Source: Aurantiochytrium sp. KH105 (taxonomy: Eukaryota > Sar > Bigyra > Thraustochytrida > Thraustochytriidae). Taken from it: a stretch of 64,000 nt of DNA. This document shows positions 9,553 through 18,673 of this stretch, in pieces. The notes beneath the pieces were generated by a model. That model was given only the letters and a program-made list of their open reading frames with translations, had not been told where the DNA came from and made no database searches. The stretch covers positions 186,001 through 250,000 of the forward strand of contig BGKB01000094.1 in NCBI GenBank assembly GCA_003116975.1, in the 5' to 3' direction. Every line of letters begins with the position of its first letter. Within the stretch, counting starts at the first letter, position 1. A program made the position numbers and the translations under genes.

Positions 9553-11388
9553 CTAGAGGGCCACCGAAATGGTTGCACGGCTGCCAGTGGCACTGGTGGC
9601 TGGCCGGCTGGCCGTGGATGGCTGCCTGGTGGACGAATTGTCGGTCGGCAGCAATGGGTCCAAGTCTTGGTCGTGTGCTTCACTCCGACCGGCAGCGGAA
9701 GGACAGTATGGCCACCATGCCGGACCGACTTGTTCAACGAATTTGGAGACAGGCGCCTTGTGACAATCACGCGCAGTGGTCCGGAATGTTTTGAGCTCCT
9801 GGAAGAGCAGCGCCTTGTAGCGCGCGAGCTCCCGCGCGAAGCGTGGGTCCTGGGCAAGGTCCTTGCGCTCTTGCGGGTCCGAGGTCAGCTCAAAGAGGCA
9901 GAAGCCACCGTCGCACGGTCTCGAGCCAAAGTCGCCACCCGTGCGCTCCCCGCTGCGTCCGGCGCCGTCCGCAGCCGCCGCCGCGGCTGCGGCCGGCAGT
10001 TGCGGCAGCTCGCGGGCCTCTGCCTTCGCTTCAAGTTTGGACCACCCGTCCGGAAATCCCGCTGAGTCAACAATTATCTTCCACTGACGCCCGTCTGGGG
10101 CATCATAGAGCATACCAAAACCCAAATTCCCGTGGTCGGAGGTATTTCCCAGAGCCACAGAGGTGCGGACAGGCGACTTGTGAGAAGAACCACCATGGTC
10201 GACTTCATCGTTGGGGGCAGCTGAAAGCTGTGACCAGTGTGAGAGTGAGTCCAAGGGAACGGCAGAATGCATCGAAAGCGACGCCGCCTCTGCGAGCGTG
10301 GCCACCCAGTCCGCAATGTGCATGAGACCGCTGTACGTGCCTCGCCGCTTGATCCCGTAGCCGGCGAGCACGCAGGTCCCGCGCACGCCGCCCTCATATA
10401 GAGAGTGCTTCCCACCACGAAAGGGCGTGTTCCGGCTGCCAACGGCATCACTTGTGTCGACGGGCCCGCCGTTGTCTGTTGTGATGACCACAAGAGTCTC
10501 GTCGCCGCCCATTCCGTTTCGCTCGAGAGCTCGGGTGATATTGCCGATCCCGTAGTCGACGGCCGCGAGCATCCCGGCGAACTGGCGCCGTTGCCCTGGG
10601 CCAAGCGTCTCGAGATACGGGGACACGTACTCTTGGGGCACCTGCGTGCCCTGCCAGCCGCCGTAGTGCACGCCTTGATACGCGACGAACAGAAACAGAG
10701 GCGTCTCTCTCCCCGAGGACCCATGGCGATCGATGATCTTGACCGCTCTTTCTGTAAAGTACTCTGTAGAGTATTGCAGTTGCGCCTCTTGTGCAACGCG
10801 AAAGCAAGACTCTGCATTGCAGCGAGGCGCGGTGCCCTCGAGAATGTGAAACCAGCTGTGTCCGGGATCATACGAGCGGCCAAGAAAGTAGTCCCCGCCA
10901 CCGTTGATTAGACCCAAGTACGAATTGAACCCACGATACGTTGGTAGGTACTCCCACGTATGATGACCCAGGTGCCACTTGCCCACCATGTGCGTGGCGT
11001 ACCCGGCACTCTGGAATCTCTCGCTGAGGAGCGTATTGTCGAGTTCGAGGCCGAGACCTGACGCTGGCGTGAGCCAATTATGCAATCCATGGTGATGTGA
11101 GAACCGGCCGCTCATGAGCGCGGCGCGGCTCGGCACGCACGCCGTGTGCGTGTAGTAGCGGCCGAGCTCCAGACCTCTTTGCCGTATCGCGTCAATCTCT
11201 GGCGTGCAGATCTGGTCACCGTTGCGAAAGCCAACATCCGCCCACCCCAGATCGTCAACCACTATCATGACCACGTTTGGTCTCGTCTGCTCCGCCGTCG
11301 CGACCGCCGCCAGGGCTGCGGCCCACGCCCACGCCCACGCCCACGCCCACGCCCACGCCCACGCCCACGCCCACGCCCGCGCCATCAT
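9553..11388 (-). CDS. secreted arylsulfatase B/I/J-like sulfatase with an Ala-Trp repeat signal peptide
   Basis: A type I sulfatase that hydrolyses sulfate esters, probably on glycans, in the secretory or lysosomal route or outside the cell. From the ATG at 11388 it is 611 residues. The core motif CVPSR (Cys84) is the site for conversion to formylglycine. Metal-binding and family motifs follow: VVDDLGWAD near residue 42, GKWHLGHH, TDNGGP and NTPFRGGKHSLYEGGVRG, the last typical of the ARSB/ARSI/ARSJ group. The N-terminus is odd: after Met-Met-Ala-Arg come nine Ala-Trp dipeptides encoded by a perfect hexanucleotide repeat (11321-11374), then AAALAAVATA, which looks like a cleavage region. The gene shares a 652-bp divergent promoter with a sulfotransferase gene. 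Confidence 0.9.
   Translation of the reverse strand: MMARAWAWAWAWAWAWAWAWAWAAALAAVATAEQTRPNVVMIVVDDLGWADVGFRNGDQICTPEIDAIRQRGLELGRYYTHTACVPSRAALMSGRFSHHHGLHNWLTPASGLGLELDNTLLSERFQSAGYATHMVGKWHLGHHTWEYLPTYRGFNSYLGLINGGGDYFLGRSYDPGHSWFHILEGTAPRCNAESCFRVAQEAQLQYSTEYFTERAVKIIDRHGSSGRETPLFLFVAYQGVHYGGWQGTQVPQEYVSPYLETLGPGQRRQFAGMLAAVDYGIGNITRALERNGMGGDETLVVITTDNGGPVDTSDAVGSRNTPFRGGKHSLYEGGVRGTCVLAGYGIKRRGTYSGLMHIADWVATLAEAASLSMHSAVPLDSLSHWSQLSAAPNDEVDHGGSSHKSPVRTSVALGNTSDHGNLGFGMLYDAPDGRQWKIIVDSAGFPDGWSKLEAKAEARELPQLPAAAAAAAADGAGRSGERTGGDFGSRPCDGGFCLFELTSDPQERKDLAQDPRFARELARYKALLFQELKTFRTTARDCHKAPVSKFVEQVGPAWWPYCPSAAGRSEAHDQDLDPLLPTDNSSTRQPSTASRPATSATGSRATISVAL
11321..11374 (-). repeat. (GCCCAC)9 hexanucleotide repeat coding for the signal peptide core
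   Basis: Nine perfect hexamers on the plus strand, with a degenerate tenth (GCCCGC). Read on the minus strand in frame they encode alternating Ala and Trp in the N-terminus of the sulfatase. Confidence 0.95.
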
Positions 11389-12040
11389 CGTCTCCGCTCG
11401 CGCCCAGTCCCAATCCCGTTTTGCCGCGTCCCACTGACCGCCGCCGCTCCCCACCCCCTCCCCTATACTACCTGCCTGTCTTTCAGGTTGCGCTCCGGGC
11501 CGCCATACTAACGCTAGTGAGCGCCGCGGCGTGCACACCCCGCCACGCTTCCTCCTGTGGTAGCTCACCCACTTCCGTGCCGAATTGAGCTTTCGTAGGC
11601 GCTACCAAGAGAGATCGCAGGGTCGGAGAAGTAGTCGGCCGCCAGGGCAGCCAGCGAGGCCCGTGACCGCCTCGCGGCTTGCGACTGCGACGCGGCGCGC
11701 GGGGAGGGAGGGAGGGAGGGAGGGAGGGAGGGAGGGAAGGAGAGCGGGAATGGTCGGCGCGTCTGTACTGAACGGCCCCAAGCGCTCCTGTGGGACGAGT
11801 GTTGATCGTCAAAATTGCGAGGATAAGGTATTTTTTTTACACGGACAGTGAGGCGGCAACAGCCGAGCATCAAAACTGCAACGCGAGGCAACGCAAAGAC
11901 GCTCATCCTCGGGCAAAGCTGAAGGCGTCTGCGAGTGCGAGAGCGAACGTTGTCTTGGCGGGACGGGGCTGGAAAGCTGTTTGTGCCCGGGCGTGCTGGT
12001 ACCAGGCCGCGCAAGAGAGCAAACTTGGAAAGAGCCGCCA
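11389..12040. other. divergent promoter region, sulfatase / sulfotransferase
   Basis: A 652-bp gap between two head-to-head genes of opposite chemistry (sulfate removal and sulfate addition). It contains a GGGA tetranucleotide tract at 11701-11736 able to form a G-quadruplex. No coding sequence is supported. Confidence 0.5.
11701..11736. repeat. (GGGA)n tract, G-quadruplex-capable
   Basis: About nine near-perfect G-run units lie between the divergent sulfatase and sulfotransferase genes. Confidence 0.9.
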
Positions 12041-13327
12041 ATGGGGCCAAAAGACAATATGCTTCTCTCGCAGAGCCCAGCTTCGTCGCCGAGAAAGGCG
12101 CAGTACCTGACGACGAAGCAGTGCATCCTGGCGCTCGCAGTACTCTTCTGCGCAATGTCGTGCGTCTTTGTCGGGGCCATGGTCTTCTTTCTCGGACCAC
12201 AAGAGATCAGCTCCCTCTCAATGAATTTGCCGCTGGGAAAGACCAATATGCTTGACGAGAGCACTTCCTCGACACAAGTCGATGATCCGGAGGACGTTGC
12301 TCTCCTGCAACGCACGTCTCAGATGATCCTGCAGCGTCGTTGTCCCGCAAATGCGCACCTTGAATTCGTCTTTCCTCATGTTCCCAAGGCTGGCGGCCGA
12401 AGCATCGAGACCACCTTCAACGCCGTCGACTTTTTGAGGACGGAAGCACGACATCATCACGTTTCGCTCGAGCCCAGGTCCCAAACGCACAATTTCACAC
12501 TACAAAATGGTCATCGCGACTTTGCGCAGCTCGCCCGAGATCTACGGTGCAATTCCCTGACTTGCGAAGTCACTTCGGACAACTTTTGCAGGCGCTGGAT
12601 TTACGCCGTCCGGGAGCCCGTCGCCCGCTTTGTTTCGGCATTCTACACATCGACCGGGCGGGGCGACGGTGGGCACTTTTTGTGCGCGGTGAACTCAACC
12701 GCGAAACGCATCATCGCAGCAGACCCCGACTTATCAATCGAAGACTGGGCTCGTCTCCCACGCGAGGAACGCGATAAGTGCCGAGGAGTCTTCAACGTCC
12801 ATGTCAATTTTCTTGCGCCTGAGCTGCGCAACGACCCCAAGAGGCAGCTCGAGCTTGCCAAGCAAAGACTTACCTCTGTTATGAGTTGGACACTCATTGT
12901 TGAGGAGCTCGCAGAATCTTTTGAGCTCTTCTCGTATATCTTTGGCTCGGACCTCGTTCATCATGTGCCCGCCTTTAACTACAACAAGTACGAGAAGAAA
13001 CTGAGCGCGCACGCACAAAAGGTCATCGAAGAACACAACCTGTACGACATCGAGCTCTACCAACACGCTCTGGAACACCACCGCATCATGGTAGACCTGA
13101 TGCGCGCTGACAGCTCTGGCCCATTTTACAACAAAACCCCGTTCCGCTGCGACAAGGATGTTGTTTGCTGGGACAAGCTTGCCGGACGCGGTTCCACGTG
13201 GGATGTCACGCAAGCACCAGCTTGGCAGAAGCACTTTCCCAGCAAAGGGCAGGCGAAGACGCGTCAGCTTTGCGCGCCAAGACGCGGGTGTTGGCGAGAG
13301 GATCTCGCGGACTCCAAATTTACATGA
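12041..13327 (+). CDS. Golgi-type carbohydrate sulfotransferase (type II membrane protein)
   Basis: Transfers sulfate from PAPS to a sugar, most likely in the Golgi lumen. From ATG 12041 it is 428 residues: a short cytosolic tail with Lys/Arg, one signal-anchor helix at about 28-51 (CILALAVLFCAMSCVFVGAM), then a lumenal domain. PHVPKAGGRSIETTF (P115-K116) fits the 5'-phosphosulfate loop and REPVARFVSAFY the 3'-phosphate site of the Sulfotransfer_2/HS2ST-type families. Candidate N-glycosylation sites include NFT, NST and NKT. The acceptor is unknown. The stop codon sits in the first unit of a long ATGA repeat. The divergent neighbour is a sulfatase. Confidence 0.8.
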   Translation: MGPKDNMLLSQSPASSPRKAQYLTTKQCILALAVLFCAMSCVFVGAMVFFLGPQEISSLSMNLPLGKTNMLDESTSSTQVDDPEDVALLQRTSQMILQRRCPANAHLEFVFPHVPKAGGRSIETTFNAVDFLRTEARHHHVSLEPRSQTHNFTLQNGHRDFAQLARDLRCNSLTCEVTSDNFCRRWIYAVREPVARFVSAFYTSTGRGDGGHFLCAVNSTAKRIIAADPDLSIEDWARLPREERDKCRGVFNVHVNFLAPELRNDPKRQLELAKQRLTSVMSWTLIVEELAESFELFSYIFGSDLVHHVPAFNYNKYEKKLSAHAQKVIEEHNLYDIELYQHALEHHRIMVDLMRADSSGPFYNKTPFRCDKDVVCWDKLAGRGSTWDVTQAPAWQKHFPSKGQAKTRQLCAPRRGCWREDLADSKFT

Positions 13328-13800: not shown

Positions 13801-16800
13801 CTACAAGAGCTTTGAATCAGAAAGTGGGTCTACCTGACCAGCATTTGGACTTGCCAAGGGTTGATGAATGAGTGAGATCGTCCAGGCATTCGGCGAGCTC
13901 TTCGTGACTGAAAAGCCCCAAGAGTCGAGAACCATTCCGATGAGCTCCTGACCCGTCCACACGGCCCATGGATAGCCCGACGTCTCGAGACGCGTGCGTG
14001 ACGTCTCAATACGCACGTGCACGACATCGTCTGCATCTTTCGCTGCATCCGGGTTACTCTCCGGCGCGTCATTTTCGTCTACATCTACCTCCTCGTCGTC
14101 ATACTCTTCCAGGTCGCGATCCTGCTGCTTGGTGTTACGATGGCGCCCAGCCTGCTGACGAATGCGGTGATAAAGAATGTCCCCATCACGTTTTGACAAC
14201 ATGAACGTGGGCAATTTGGCCCGCGTCGAGGAGAAAAGCGCCGCCATGGCCTTGCCAAAAAGGTCGTCCTGTGCCATGCCCACCATGTAGAAAAGACCTT
14301 CCTCGTCTTTATTCTGTGCGATAAGGAGTGCGAGCGCCCCGGCCTTTTCGGCAAAGAGCGCCTTTTGCTCGAACATGCAGGTTCCACGCCGCACGAGGAC
14401 GACACGATTTGCAACAAGTTCCGGGGGGTAGGCTGCTGCAGAACATCCTTCGGGTTCGACGGCGAGGACTACAGAGCCCTCCACCACTTGTGGAACGGCT
14501 CCGGGCCCAAACTCGGAAAAGCTGCATGCCGTAGGGGCCTGCAGCCGCGACAATGGCGCGCGCGCGTGCTCCATCGTGGACCATGGGCTCGGCCTTGGCG
14601 CGCACGTTGGCCCTGGCCCAGTCGAGATCTCGATGGAACATCGAAGAGCAAAGCCTGGTTTCTTCTGGTTCACATACAGAAACGAAGAATGCATTGGCTC
14701 GCCCTCCATGACTTCTATGGCAGCCAAATCCGTCTCCAGACTTGAGATGGTCACTGCCGAGTTACTAAATTCGTGGTAAAGGTGAAAGCCTGCTTGGAGC
14801 GGTTGGACTTCGTACACTGCGTCTTCCTCCGGTCCAAGACGCACTGTTTGCACATTGGCAAAATCCTCAGCGTCCGCATCTTCTTCCTCCCCCGCAAAAC
14901 CAAGTTCTTCCCGACCATGGTCGGGGTCGTCATTGTCATCGTCGGCAGCGTCAATGTCAACATCGACACCGTCTCTTTGTTCCGAACTGCTTCTGCGCGC
15001 GCTGCCGCCGGCGTCCTCCCCCGAGGCGAGCCTGCTCGCGCGCTTAGCGGCCTTAGAAAGGTAGCCGAATCGCCTGGGTTTGCGAAGGGCCGGGTTTGCG
15101 CCATAGTACGAGGAGACCTGGGAGCTGTCCTGGTCATTGCGATCGATCGCGGGACACATCCATTCCGAGCTCATCGCCTCGTCAGTAAGAGAAGGGACGC
15201 CCCACAGACCTTTGACCTGTTCGCGCAGCGCTGCACGCGCGGAGTTGCTGCGCGGTTTGCGAGAAAATGCAAAACCCATCTCCCGGGCCTTGCGCTGAAA
15301 GTCGGCACGCACAGGGATGAGATGCGCTTCGGTAGAAAACACATAGTTTGCGCCATTATCCTCACGAAATGGACTTTCCTCGTCAAAAAGCAAATAGAGG
15401 TACTTGAGCAGCTCTGAAAGGAAAAACGAGGGCATGGTGTCGTGTAGTCGCTCCGTTTTAATGTCCTTTATACTCGCGTAGCCGCACTCGACGAAGCAGG
15501 CCTGCTCGAGTCCGCGCACCATGTCCCGGCCAGCGACAAGCCAGGCTGGATCTTGCGTGGTAGTGCTCATGTAGAAAACACTCTCTGCCAGCTCGGGTCG
15601 CAAGGGGTAGCCGCGACGAGTGCCTCCGACGAGAGGCTCCCAGCGATCAATGCCAAAGTCCTCTGGAGTGAAGCCAAACTCATTCCAGACGCGCAAGAAG
15701 GCATTGATGGTTCTGCTTGCAGCTTCGGCGTCGCCGACAAGAGTCTGCATGCCCGGCCAAAAGGCTTGCAGATTGTTGAACTGGCGTCGCAGGGTGCTGC
15801 CGCGGTGCATGTTGACCTCAATATACCACGTGTCCCCAACACGCAATCGCCGCACGGCCGCTGCGTAGAGCTTTTGAAACATGACAAAGGCCTCCTCGTC
15901 GCCAAAGGCAATGTAGTGCTTGATGTAATATTCGTAGAGCGAATCAATGTTGGACCCGATTCCGGCTGTCGGTTCGGTCCACCTGCCAGTCTGCACGTCG
16001 ATGTGGCGCCCCACCAGATCGAGCTTGGACCGGTGGTCAAAGATGGCTTTGAGTGCATCTCGCGCGGCAACGCCGTAGCGCGCGTCGTCCGTGAGCACGG
16101 AAAGCAAGCCAAACTCGAGCGAGAGCGAGCCGGCCGCTGCTGTGCACGCTTCCGTCGTCTCGCCGCGTGGCACACCGTGGCGCAGGTTCACAGTTCCGTA
16201 CGGGATCGAGGTTGTGGTTTCAAAGGCAGGAAGGAGTCTGTCGCCGAGGTCACGGGCGAGACGCAAGAGATCGCCATCGTAGTCAGGCATGATGGCCAGA
16301 TCCGGGTCGCTGGCCAACAAGTGAGCGGAAAGCAAGCCTCCAAGAATACGAATCGTCGTCTCAAAGACAGAGACAGTCTGATCGAGGTCAAAGTCGGCAT
16401 GGCTCGAGACGACGCGCACGGCACGCGCAAATTCCGTGTAGTTGCCCACAATGGCAAGCATGTCAAGAGAGTCGATCAAAGTGAGCATGTTGCCAGCGGT
16501 GAGACCAAAGCGCTCGCCGCGGCACGAGAGCGGTTTGAGCTCGTCGAGAGGAAAGGCGTTCTCCATGTAGGCATTGTAACCATGGTAGAACATGCCGCGG
16601 ACCTGCTCGCGAAGATTGATGCGCTCAGTTTCGGAGATGTGCATACGCTTATTTCCTGCGTTGCGCTTCTGGTGGCCAGGAGACGCCCCCTGTGTTGCTT
16701 GCTTTTCCTGAATTCCGCCAATTCCACCGGCCTCTGAGCGCGATTTCGTCGTCGATTGGACAGTCCCAAGATTGTCGATGTCGACGCCATAATCATCATC

Positions 16801-17559
16801 GCTGATTTTCTTTTCTTCGTCATTGTCATTGGACTCGCGTCGAATAGTCCATCGATCTTTCCGTTTGGCGCCTTCTGCAGTACCCTCATTCTCGCGATCA
16901 TCCAGCACGCTACACTCTTGGCTTTCTTCTTCCCAGAGCCGTGGCAACATGCATCCTATGGGGGAGCAGACGGACATAGCGTAGGCGCAAGTAGATACCT
17001 CGGAAACCGTGAGAATGTGCGCAAGCTCGGAAGTTGGGATGGAAGGCGCGGCAGCCAGATCTTCGTCCATGTGCTTGGCTTGGGCAGCGTGTCTGCCGCA
17101 GCAGCGGATCCTGACAATAGTAGACCGCTTCGTCCCAGCTTGCTCGCAGGGCTGGCCGCCTTCGAATTTGTAGGCAATGTAGGTCGGCCGATTATTCTTC
17201 CAGCCGCCCAAGGTGGGCTCGCCGCCGTTGGCCGCGAGCGTGCCTGCCGACCAGTCGACGGATCGAGGGCCCGTTCTGGACTCCATGTGGAACTGACGCA
17301 CCTCTTTTCCATGGCACCATGCGTACTGCCACCATCCGCTACCGCTGGACTCCACGCAGACGCCCTCGAGCGGGCGCAGGAGGTCCTCGACCCGGGCGGC
17401 GACAACCTGGCCCACGGCGGCTCGCGGGTCTCCCGCATCCTCGGTCTCTGCGCGAGCTGCCGTCGTCGCCGCCAGCTGCAGCAGGACGGCCGCCGCCAGG
17501 ACCGCCGCCGCCAGCCGCGCCAGGACCGCCGGCCCTGGCAGCCGCGCGGGCCCCGCCAT
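13801..17559 (-). CDS. MRH lectin + GH47 alpha-mannosidase (EDEM-like) + PA domain fusion
   Basis: Predicted ER-lumen protein of glycoprotein ERAD, 1,252 residues from ATG 17559 with a signal peptide (LARLAAAVLAAAVLLQL). Residues about 66-200 form an MRH domain like OS-9/Yos9: Cys68, the double Trp76-Trp77, Gln89 (VRQFH), Arg152 (VRIRC), Glu187 and Tyr193 match the OS-9 mannose-binding set, including the Glu-to-Tyr spacing. After an acidic linker, a GH47 domain (about 314-750) carries the candidate catalytic acids Glu400 (VFETTIR), Asp539 (NIDSLYEYY) and Glu659 (AESVFYM), and the C-terminal STEAH calcium motif of EDEMs. A second acidic linker precedes a PA domain (about 1005-1135; LVRRGTCMFEQKA), as in EDEM3. 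There is no KDEL-type tail. Domain calls are firm; trimming activity is inferred. Confidence 0.9.
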   Translation of the reverse strand: MAGPARLPGPAVLARLAAAVLAAAVLLQLAATTAARAETEDAGDPRAAVGQVVAARVEDLLRPLEGVCVESSGSGWWQYAWCHGKEVRQFHMESRTGPRSVDWSAGTLAANGGEPTLGGWKNNRPTYIAYKFEGGQPCEQAGTKRSTIVRIRCCGRHAAQAKHMDEDLAAAPSIPTSELAHILTVSEVSTCAYAMSVCSPIGCMLPRLWEEESQECSVLDDRENEGTAEGAKRKDRWTIRRESNDNDEEKKISDDDYGVDIDNLGTVQSTTKSRSEAGGIGGIQEKQATQGASPGHQKRNAGNKRMHISETERINLREQVRGMFYHGYNAYMENAFPLDELKPLSCRGERFGLTAGNMLTLIDSLDMLAIVGNYTEFARAVRVVSSHADFDLDQTVSVFETTIRILGGLLSAHLLASDPDLAIMPDYDGDLLRLARDLGDRLLPAFETTTSIPYGTVNLRHGVPRGETTEACTAAAGSLSLEFGLLSVLTDDARYGVAARDALKAIFDHRSKLDLVGRHIDVQTGRWTEPTAGIGSNIDSLYEYYIKHYIAFGDEEAFVMFQKLYAAAVRRLRVGDTWYIEVNMHRGSTLRRQFNNLQAFWPGMQTLVGDAEAASRTINAFLRVWNEFGFTPEDFGIDRWEPLVGGTRRGYPLRPELAESVFYMSTTTQDPAWLVAGRDMVRGLEQACFVECGYASIKDIKTERLHDTMPSFFLSELLKYLYLLFDEESPFREDNGANYVFSTEAHLIPVRADFQRKAREMGFAFSRKPRSNSARAALREQVKGLWGVPSLTDEAMSSEWMCPAIDRNDQDSSQVSSYYGANPALRKPRRFGYLSKAAKRASRLASGEDAGGSARRSSSEQRDGVDVDIDAADDDNDDPDHGREELGFAGEEEDADAEDFANVQTVRLGPEEDAVYEVQPLQAGFHLYHEFSNSAVTISSLETDLAAIEVMEGEPMHSSFLYVNQKKPGFALRCSIEISTGPGPTCAPRPSPWSTMEHARAPLSRLQAPTACSFSEFGPGAVPQVVEGSVVLAVEPEGCSAAAYPPELVANRVVLVRRGTCMFEQKALFAEKAGALALLIAQNKDEEGLFYMVGMAQDDLFGKAMAALFSSTRAKLPTFMLSKRDGDILYHRIRQQAGRHRNTKQQDRDLEEYDDEEVDVDENDAPESNPDAAKDADDVVHVRIETSRTRLETSGYPWAVWTGQELIGMVLDSWGFSVTKSSPNAWTISLIHQPLASPNAGQVDPLSDSKLL

Positions 17560-18001
17560 CGCGCACCGCGTTTTGAATTTGCTCTGCTCTGCTCTGCTTC
17601 GCGTTGCGTTGCGTTGCCTTGTTGTAAAAGGAGTCTCGGTCTCAGGGCTCGGCACGCTCGCATTCCCACAACTCTTATCGTGCGTGCGTCGCGAGCAGCG
17701 GCGGCGCGCAGGGGAAGAGCGAGGCAAAGCGAGGCGAGGCGCGGCGAGGCGAGACGCACGAGAACGAGCGCGACGCGAAGGACTCGGACCTCGTGTGGAA
17801 AGACGGCGACGCCGCCGACGACGACGACGACAACGAAGACGACGACGACGAAGACGAAGACCTCGTCAACGACCTTGACGTCGACGACGACGTTGACATC
17901 GAGAGCAAGCGCAGAGATTGGATAGAACAAACAGGAGCTGCAGGAGAAGGCGCGACATCCAGCGCAGAGATAAAGTTGAAGGTGGAAGGAGGGCGAGTGA
18001 G
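17560..18001. other. divergent promoter region, MRH-GH47-PA / PRKRIP1
   Basis: 442 bp with a GAC-rich tract at about 17815-17890. One plus frame reads as an Asp/Glu run followed by a plausible-looking peptide, but it has no ATG and ends before 18005. It is treated as noncoding. Confidence 0.4.
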
Positions 18002-18673
18002 ATGAACGGCGGTGGCGGCGCTCGATCGGCCGAAGCCTCGCGGGCAATCCAACAGGCCGTGGCGCAGGGCGACAAGGCGGCTGTCGCTGACGACGCCAAA
18101 TTCCAGCTGAAAAAAGTTGACAACTACTATGGCAGCACTGCAGGCGCAGGGAGCGGCGAGTTCCACGCATACAGACACCTTCGACGCAAAGAGCAAGAGC
18201 GCATGGCAGCGCTTGAGAAAAGCGATGAGGATGCCAGGGCCCGAAACGAGTTCAATGCGCGTCGTAAACGTGATCAAGAGGCCATCGATGCAAAGTCGCG
18301 AAAACGTGCAGAAAAGCGCAAACGCCAAAAGGAACGAAAACGTCTCCACGCTTCTTCTCATTCTGCTGCTATTGCTGTGGCTACTTCTTCTTCATCTTTA
18401 TCTGCAACATCTTCACAAGGGCCAGCCACTAAAACGGACAATCTCGATCATGCTCATGAACCATCATCAACTCTCGAAAATGTTGGAAAGATAGAAGCAC
18501 CGCCACCAGAACCCAAGACAAATGCTGTGGAGAAGAAGAAGGGCGAGGATGAGGACGAGGACGCCGAGGAAGCGATGCGAGCGCGCAAATTGAACAAGTT
18601 TTCTAACGACGGTAGTTTCCTAGACGCTGTCAACGCGCTCAAGGAGTATGCGGCTGCACCCGAGACCAAATGA
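18002..18673 (+). CDS. PRKRIP1: PRKRIP1-like spliceosome protein (DUF1168)
   Basis: A small, highly charged nuclear protein; in animals PRKRIP1 is found in catalytic-stage spliceosomes. It is 223 residues from ATG 18002; the frame is open upstream to 17918 without an ATG. The family signature is clear: YYGSTAGAGSGEFHAYRHL (about 41-59), then a long Lys/Arg/Glu helix (RRKEQERMAALEKS... RKRAEKRKRQKERKR). A Ser/Thr-rich region, an acidic EDEDEDAEE stretch and a conserved-looking C-terminus (FSNDGSFLDAVNALKEY) follow. The first 40 residues match animal PRKRIP1 poorly, so an upstream exon is possible. Confidence 0.8.
   Translation: MNGGGGARSAEASRAIQQAVAQGDKAAVADDAKFQLKKVDNYYGSTAGAGSGEFHAYRHLRRKEQERMAALEKSDEDARARNEFNARRKRDQEAIDAKSRKRAEKRKRQKERKRLHASSHSAAIAVATSSSSLSATSSQGPATKTDNLDHAHEPSSTLENVGKIEAPPPEPKTNAVEKKKGEDEDEDAEEAMRARKLNKFSNDGSFLDAVNALKEYAAAPETK

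Follow-up and report, generated by a model that had tools for sequence, protein, structure and literature searches.

A predicted protein of Aurantiochytrium sp. KH105 with an MRH lectin domain and an EDEM/Mnl1-type GH47 mannosidase domain in one chain

The window analysed here, a 64,000-nucleotide stretch of contig BGKB01000094.1 (positions 186,001 to 250,000, forward strand) from the thraustochytrid Aurantiochytrium sp. KH105, carries on its reverse strand a gene predicted to encode an MRH lectin domain, a GH47 alpha-mannosidase domain and a PA domain in a single chain. In yeast and humans, the enzyme that trims the sugar and the lectin that recognizes the trimmed sugar are separate proteins. 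An earlier inspection of the letters alone (the sequence-only reading) had placed the three domains in one polypeptide encoded by a single open reading frame (ORF) at 13801-17559. Pfam searches with the 1252-residue protein bear this out, recovering PRKCSH/MRH (PF07915) at residues 66-138 (E 1.1e-8; 36.3 bits against a cut-off of 27), Glyco_hydro_47 (PF01532) at 323-750 over the full length of the profile (E 2.8e-108; profile positions 1-455 of 455) and PA (PF02225) at 1026-1129 (E 9.8e-15; 54.9 bits against a cut-off of 23.9; profile positions 1-95 of 95). A linker of 95 residues (216-310) separates the MRH and GH47 domains.

The genome surveyed comprises 76.0 Mb in 367 contigs, the fusion gene of the window lying on contig C94, and many of its genes occur as pairs on different contigs. 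A second copy of the fusion, syntenic and with about 95% identity across 6.2 kb, is found on contig C82, where the neighboring sulfotransferase-like ORF is also present; this copy is probably the other allele. It encodes 1247 amino acids with MRH, GH47 and PA (Pfam) in identical order and in frame, and within the ORF the gaps between the two copies amount to only five codons, located after residue 1135. With this arrangement preserved in frame on a second contig, we consider an assembly join very unlikely. The linker differs between the copies by seven synonymous and seven non-synonymous changes without gaps (ratio of non-synonymous to synonymous proportions, pN/pS, 0.28), the corresponding values being three and zero for residues 63-215 (pN/pS 0.00) and 19 and two for residues 311-755 (pN/pS 0.033). 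The unbroken frame between MRH and GH47, free of assembly error, which the sequence-only reading had assumed, thus finds support in a second copy with the same order and a gap-free, open linker. By itself the open linker is modest evidence, since a frame of this length would be open by base composition alone with a chance of about 1%. Two features speak for an artefact: across the linker another sense frame is likewise open, and the linker's third-position GC content, at 0.52, falls below the 0.68 of GH47 and above the 0.44 of the intergenic stretch downstream. Judging from the two contigs, it is very likely that the fusion is real at the DNA level.

The MRH domain has a complete pocket, comprising Trp76, Trp77, Gln89, Arg145, Glu187 and Tyr193, the first four of which align with OS-9 Trp117, Trp118, Gln130 and Arg188 (numbered along the 9og0_E row). 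Across 11 aligned MRH rows, all from this genome and with probable allele pairs counted apart, the last five pocket residues are invariant, and position 76 is Trp in six and Tyr in five. The sequence-only reading had named a complete site with five of these six residues; its arginine, Arg152, gives way to Arg145, the Arg152 column being unconserved over the same rows (R,R,V,V,M,M,F,F,K,K,V). The best PDB-chain matches are ERLEC1 (8kes_E, 2.2e-12) and OS-9 (3aih_A, 3.1e-5), and the domain carries the double Trp in the motif GWWQYAWC. Of the genome's glucosidase-II-beta-type loci, five were examined. Three of them yielded an MRH stretch, with YKYEIC or YKYSLC as its motif and no double Trp; the motif used recovered none in the other two. 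By sequence, the fused MRH belongs to the OS-9/ERLEC1 class. Its identification as a glucosidase II beta subunit was considered and rejected; the corresponding model, PF13015, scores 18.5 bits on the fusion, below the cut-off of 23, and PF12999, the N-terminal domain of glucosidase II beta, is absent from its Pfam matches up to E 1.

In the GH47 domain all three candidate acids are present: in the 4ayo chain, Glu400, Asp539 and Glu656 have as counterparts residues 98, 226 and 342, which we take to be its catalytic residues (the numbers being shifted throughout by 23 from those of the enzyme). A literature search for such residues in the Caulobacter GH47 enzyme found nothing. Asp539 also aligns with Asp279 of yeast Mnl1, and D279N has been used as an active-site mutant (excerpt of PMC12170172). 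The third acid is the Glu of an LRPE motif. The sequence-only reading had chosen Glu400 and Asp539 correctly and Glu659 in the place of Glu656, an error that leaves the site complete; the Glu659 column holds Asp in the 4ayo chain, yet Glu in all five GH47 rows of our alignment A1. Further, Cys346 and Cys692 align with Mnl1 Cys65 and Cys445, which presumably form a needed disulfide; equivalents are present in an EDEM-type paralogue (C83/C85) and absent from a Golgi-type paralogue. The best PDB match of the domain is 8zpw_A (270.7 bits), from the yeast Mnl1-Pdi1 complex (excerpt of PMC12170172), followed by 29te_A (222.8 bits; named alpha-1,2-mannosidase), the bacterial 4ayo_A (172.4 bits) and mammalian mannosidase I chains (at most 170.3 bits). 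The domain is by these scores nearest to yeast Mnl1/Htm1, within the EDEM/Mnl1 subgroup.

The remaining parts of the protein are listed in Table 1. The N-terminus is its sole strongly hydrophobic segment: 19-residue Kyte-Doolittle windows with means above 1.5 start only at residues 7-19, and those starting at residues 11 and 12 reach a mean of 2.2. Cys802 sits between the GH47 and PA domains. Against NCBIfam, three M36 peptidase models match the PA stretch, all far below their cut-offs. The gene is flanked by a sulfotransferase-family gene and a DUF1168 gene, and a sulfatase gene adjoins the former.

Table 1. Features of the fusion gene and its neighbors in the window
Feature	Residues	Positions	Strand	Basis or remark
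Whole gene, single ORF, 1252 codons plus stop	1-1252	13801..17559	-	ATG at 17559, stop at 13801; same domain order on contig C82
Hydrophobic N-terminal segment, probable signal peptide	1-37	17449..17559	-	Kyte-Doolittle
MRH lectin domain (Pfam core 66-138)	63-215	16915..17373	-	Pfam, PDB-chain alignment, MRH row alignment
Linker, charged, in-frame open on both copies	216-310	16630..16914	-	Copy comparison
GH47 alpha-mannosidase domain	323-750	15310..16593	-	Pfam, PDB-chain alignment
PA domain	1026-1129	14173..14484	-	Pfam
Acidic stretch, Asp+Glu 38%	1136-1180	14020..14154	-	Composition
C-terminal segment, ends SKLL	1181-1252	13804..14019	-	No KDEL-like end
Sulfatase gene		9553..11391	-	PF00884, E 3.9e-42
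Sulfotransferase-family gene		11981..13327	+	PF03567, E 4.1e-5
DUF1168 gene		17918..18673	+	

Profile searches over the genome contigs, whose counts are lower bounds, place the fusion among other glycoprotein quality-control genes. GH47 gave at least six matches, forming three probable allele pairs: one that we label Golgi-type (C84/C158) on account of an anchor-like N-terminal segment and no added domain, the EDEM-type pair (C83/C85) and the fusion (C94/C82). Among the other GH47 ORFs scanned (C82, C84, C83 and C85) MRH was found only in C82, and the PF07915 search gave no match anywhere on C83, C84, C85 or C158. The EDEM-type paralogue falls in the same GH47 subgroup as the fusion, lacks MRH and shows a weak, below-cut-off PA similarity; its best PDB match is 29te_A, followed by 8zpw_A. 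The C85 copy of this gene has a stop codon near its 3' end and hence lacks the RDEL end of the C83 copy. PF07915 gave at least 11 matches on seven contigs, namely, tandem-MRH lectins (C259/C235 and C21/C68), a single-MRH protein (C26) and the fusion pair. The single-MRH protein (C26:293048-293179), for which the PF07915 search found no second-contig partner, has as its best PDB match the gamma chain of GlcNAc-1-phosphotransferase (7s69_A, 1.2e-8), closely followed by ERLEC1. PF12999 was found in at least five places (glucosidase-II-beta types) and PF13015 in at least six, these being the five PF12999 genes and the single-MRH protein. The UGGT model matched in at least two places and Der1 in at least four, while PF03901 gave at least ten matches, which form four probable pairs, and one of these pairs has a match to ALG9; of three queries made with PF03901 genes, one matched ALG9, one a chain named only "Mannosyltransferase" and one nothing.

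Thus, the usual parts of N-glycan quality control are present beside the fusion, in a search that took in lectins, EDEM, glucosidase II beta, UGGT, Der1 and ALG9. Given the separate tandem-MRH lectins, EDEM-type enzyme, glucosidase-II-beta types, UGGT, Der1 and ALG9 match, the fusion adds to these parts. The check for separate genes suggested with the sequence-only reading came out positive for ERLEC/OS-9-like and EDEM-like genes alike; hence, it would be unsafe to take the fusion for the sole reader or writer of the signal.

Taking domain class and sites together, we propose that the fusion might be a single secretory-pathway protein, a Mnl1/EDEM-type alpha-1,2-mannosidase with its own OS-9/ERLEC1-class lectin, whose working site would be the lumen of the endoplasmic reticulum (ER). 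On misfolded proteins, the GH47 part would take alpha-1,2-mannose off the N-glycans, and the alpha-1,6-mannose thereby exposed would be bound by the MRH part on the same client. The enzyme would thus be held on the client, with the outcome being more trimming or its passing to the degradation machinery. In yeast, Mnl1 exposes alpha-1,6-mannose, and Yos9 then reads this sugar at the Hrd1 complex (excerpt of PMC12170172). As the OS-9 pocket excludes a branch that retains its outer alpha-1,2-mannose (excerpt of PMC6272264), an OS-9-class lectin on a mannosidase would be expected to bind the product of that mannosidase and so hold the client. Also in its favor are the pN/pS values of the MRH and GH47 parts between the two copies and the presence of UGGT, Der1 and an ALG9 match in the genome. 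This proposal builds directly on one ORF on two contigs, the domain order, the complete sites and the class of each domain; from these we infer the signal peptide, ER residence, activity, glycan specificity, binding in cis and the link to ER-associated degradation (ERAD).

We assign a probability of about 0.42 to an ER mannosidase with its own lectin gripping the trimmed product on the same client. The residues are consistent with the writer-plus-reader role that the sequence-only reading had suggested, and their class favors product reading, without proving it, over substrate positioning of the glucosidase II kind. Somewhat unlikely is the stronger form, in which one chain would both write and read the sugar code of ERAD, performing an irreversible commit-and-hold step that could proceed with no hand-over of the client to a separate OS-9/Yos9. 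Several observations weigh against the proposal. Neither copy of the fusion has a KDEL-like C-terminus (SKLL; STLL on C82), and the separate EDEM-type gene, unlike the fusion, ends in RDEL on its C83 copy. As separate tandem-MRH lectins exist, a reader would not be missing without the fusion. As to subclass, a nine-row MRH tree with long branches leaves five of its six inner branches open and places the fusion beside a partial ERLEC1 MRH2 at only 81/84.

The alternative that fares best, although we consider it somewhat unlikely, is that the MRH is a substrate-positioning module that, by binding another branch, raises the trimming of high-mannose glycans, rather than a product reader. The pairing of an MRH with a hydrolase is indeed known from glucosidase II, in which the beta-subunit MRH aids the catalytic subunit (excerpt of PMC6272264), and a lectin and an enzyme in one chain would share one glycan class. 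This is countered by the OS-9/ERLEC1-type double Trp of the fused MRH, which the MRH stretches of the genome's own glucosidase-II-beta loci (three of five) lack, and by the below-cut-off PF13015 score. Many secreted and vacuolar hydrolases carry PA domains. With the absence of a KDEL-like end and the M36 matches to the PA stretch, far below cut-off as they are, this would suit a secreted or vacuolar alpha-mannosidase acting on high-mannose glycans outside the ER; we regard such a non-ERAD role as improbable in view of a GH47 domain nearest to Mnl1, cysteines at the Cys65/Cys445 places and an MRH nearest to ERLEC1/OS-9. About as improbable would be the docking of the enzyme, via its MRH, onto N-glycans carried by a partner, for example Hrd3/SEL1L, which would bring the mannosidase to the retrotranslocation complex: OS-9 is presumably tethered via SEL1L N-glycans, and the binding of EDEM1 and EDEM2 to SEL1L is described as glycan mediated (excerpts of PMC6272264 and PMC6272441). 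Since the fusion lacks a KDEL end, such docking could serve for its retention. Finally, we consider it very improbable that the fusion is an artefact, whether of an assembly join, of two separate genes or of two transcripts, given the identical join on two contigs about 95% identical over 6.2 kb, the gap-free linker with its pN/pS of 0.28 and the absence, before the GH47 part, of any hydrophobic segment able to route that part alone into the ER.

The favored reading, a mannosidase that would grip its own product, has both parallels and differences in known systems. The fusion shares with Mnl1/Htm1 (PDB 8zpw) and EDEM1-3 the GH47 subgroup (by score, with yeast Mnl1 as the only one compared), the catalytic acids and the Cys65/Cys445 places; as in Mnl1 and EDEM3, further domains follow GH47. 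In Mnl1 these are a Pdi1-binding loop and a C-terminal domain, and the excerpt of PMC12170172 describes no MRH for Mnl1/EDEM. OS-9/Yos9 and ERLEC1 (XTP3-B), like the fusion, have an MRH with Trp-Trp (or Tyr-Trp) and the Gln-Arg-Glu-Tyr pocket, but they are described as separate lectins, and ERLEC1 has two MRH domains where the fusion has one. In glucosidase II an MRH likewise cooperates with a glycosidase on N-glycans; unlike the fusion, it consists of two chains with a GH31 rather than a GH47 enzyme (excerpt of PMC6272264), and its MRH is scored by PF13015.

Both parts are known, whereas their order in one chain is new to us, although architecture lists of the InterPro type may already show it. 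In keeping with the sequence-only reading, which knew of no described protein with this order, an MRH-GH47 fusion is named in no title or abstract opening found in a literature search without most subscription journals; in the excerpt of PMC7864949, a table of diatom enzymes lists the two Pfam accessions in different rows. The fusion protein found no relatives in two contig collections (0 among 45 pattern stretches in genome_contigs and 0 among 10 in viral_contigs). GH47 alignment A1 gave four relatives among 42 stretches in genome_contigs, all bacterial by title and compared over the GH47 part, and none among 110 in viral_contigs; MRH alignment A2 gave none among 52 in viral_contigs. As neither collection consists of eukaryote genomes, these absences say little about the spread of the fusion.

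Two side observations on the genome concern other subjects. A long tandem array of acyl carrier protein (ACP) domains is expected of the thraustochytrid polyunsaturated fatty acid synthase; PF00550 gave at least 31 matches in the genome, without such an array. The mitochondrial contig C366 (30,955 bases, parts of them N) has a GC content of 34.2% over the 25,000 bases fetched (N included), and TTA, rare relative to TTG and CTN codons, is apparently used as a stop (NCBI table 23). Of its 16 longest table-23 frames, six are runs of N, and the other ten have predicted ends at TTA (seven) or TAA (three). The mitogenome of Schizochytrium sp. TIO1101 has 31,494 bp and 33.92% GC, and TTA is one of its stop codons (excerpt of PMC7799850).

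In the systems described above, the degradation signal is trimmed and read by separate proteins that must meet the same client. A natural fusion of the two suggests that trimming and reading can act simultaneously on one client, and it offers a single protein in which to ask what reading of the product does: retain the client, accelerate trimming or dock the enzyme.

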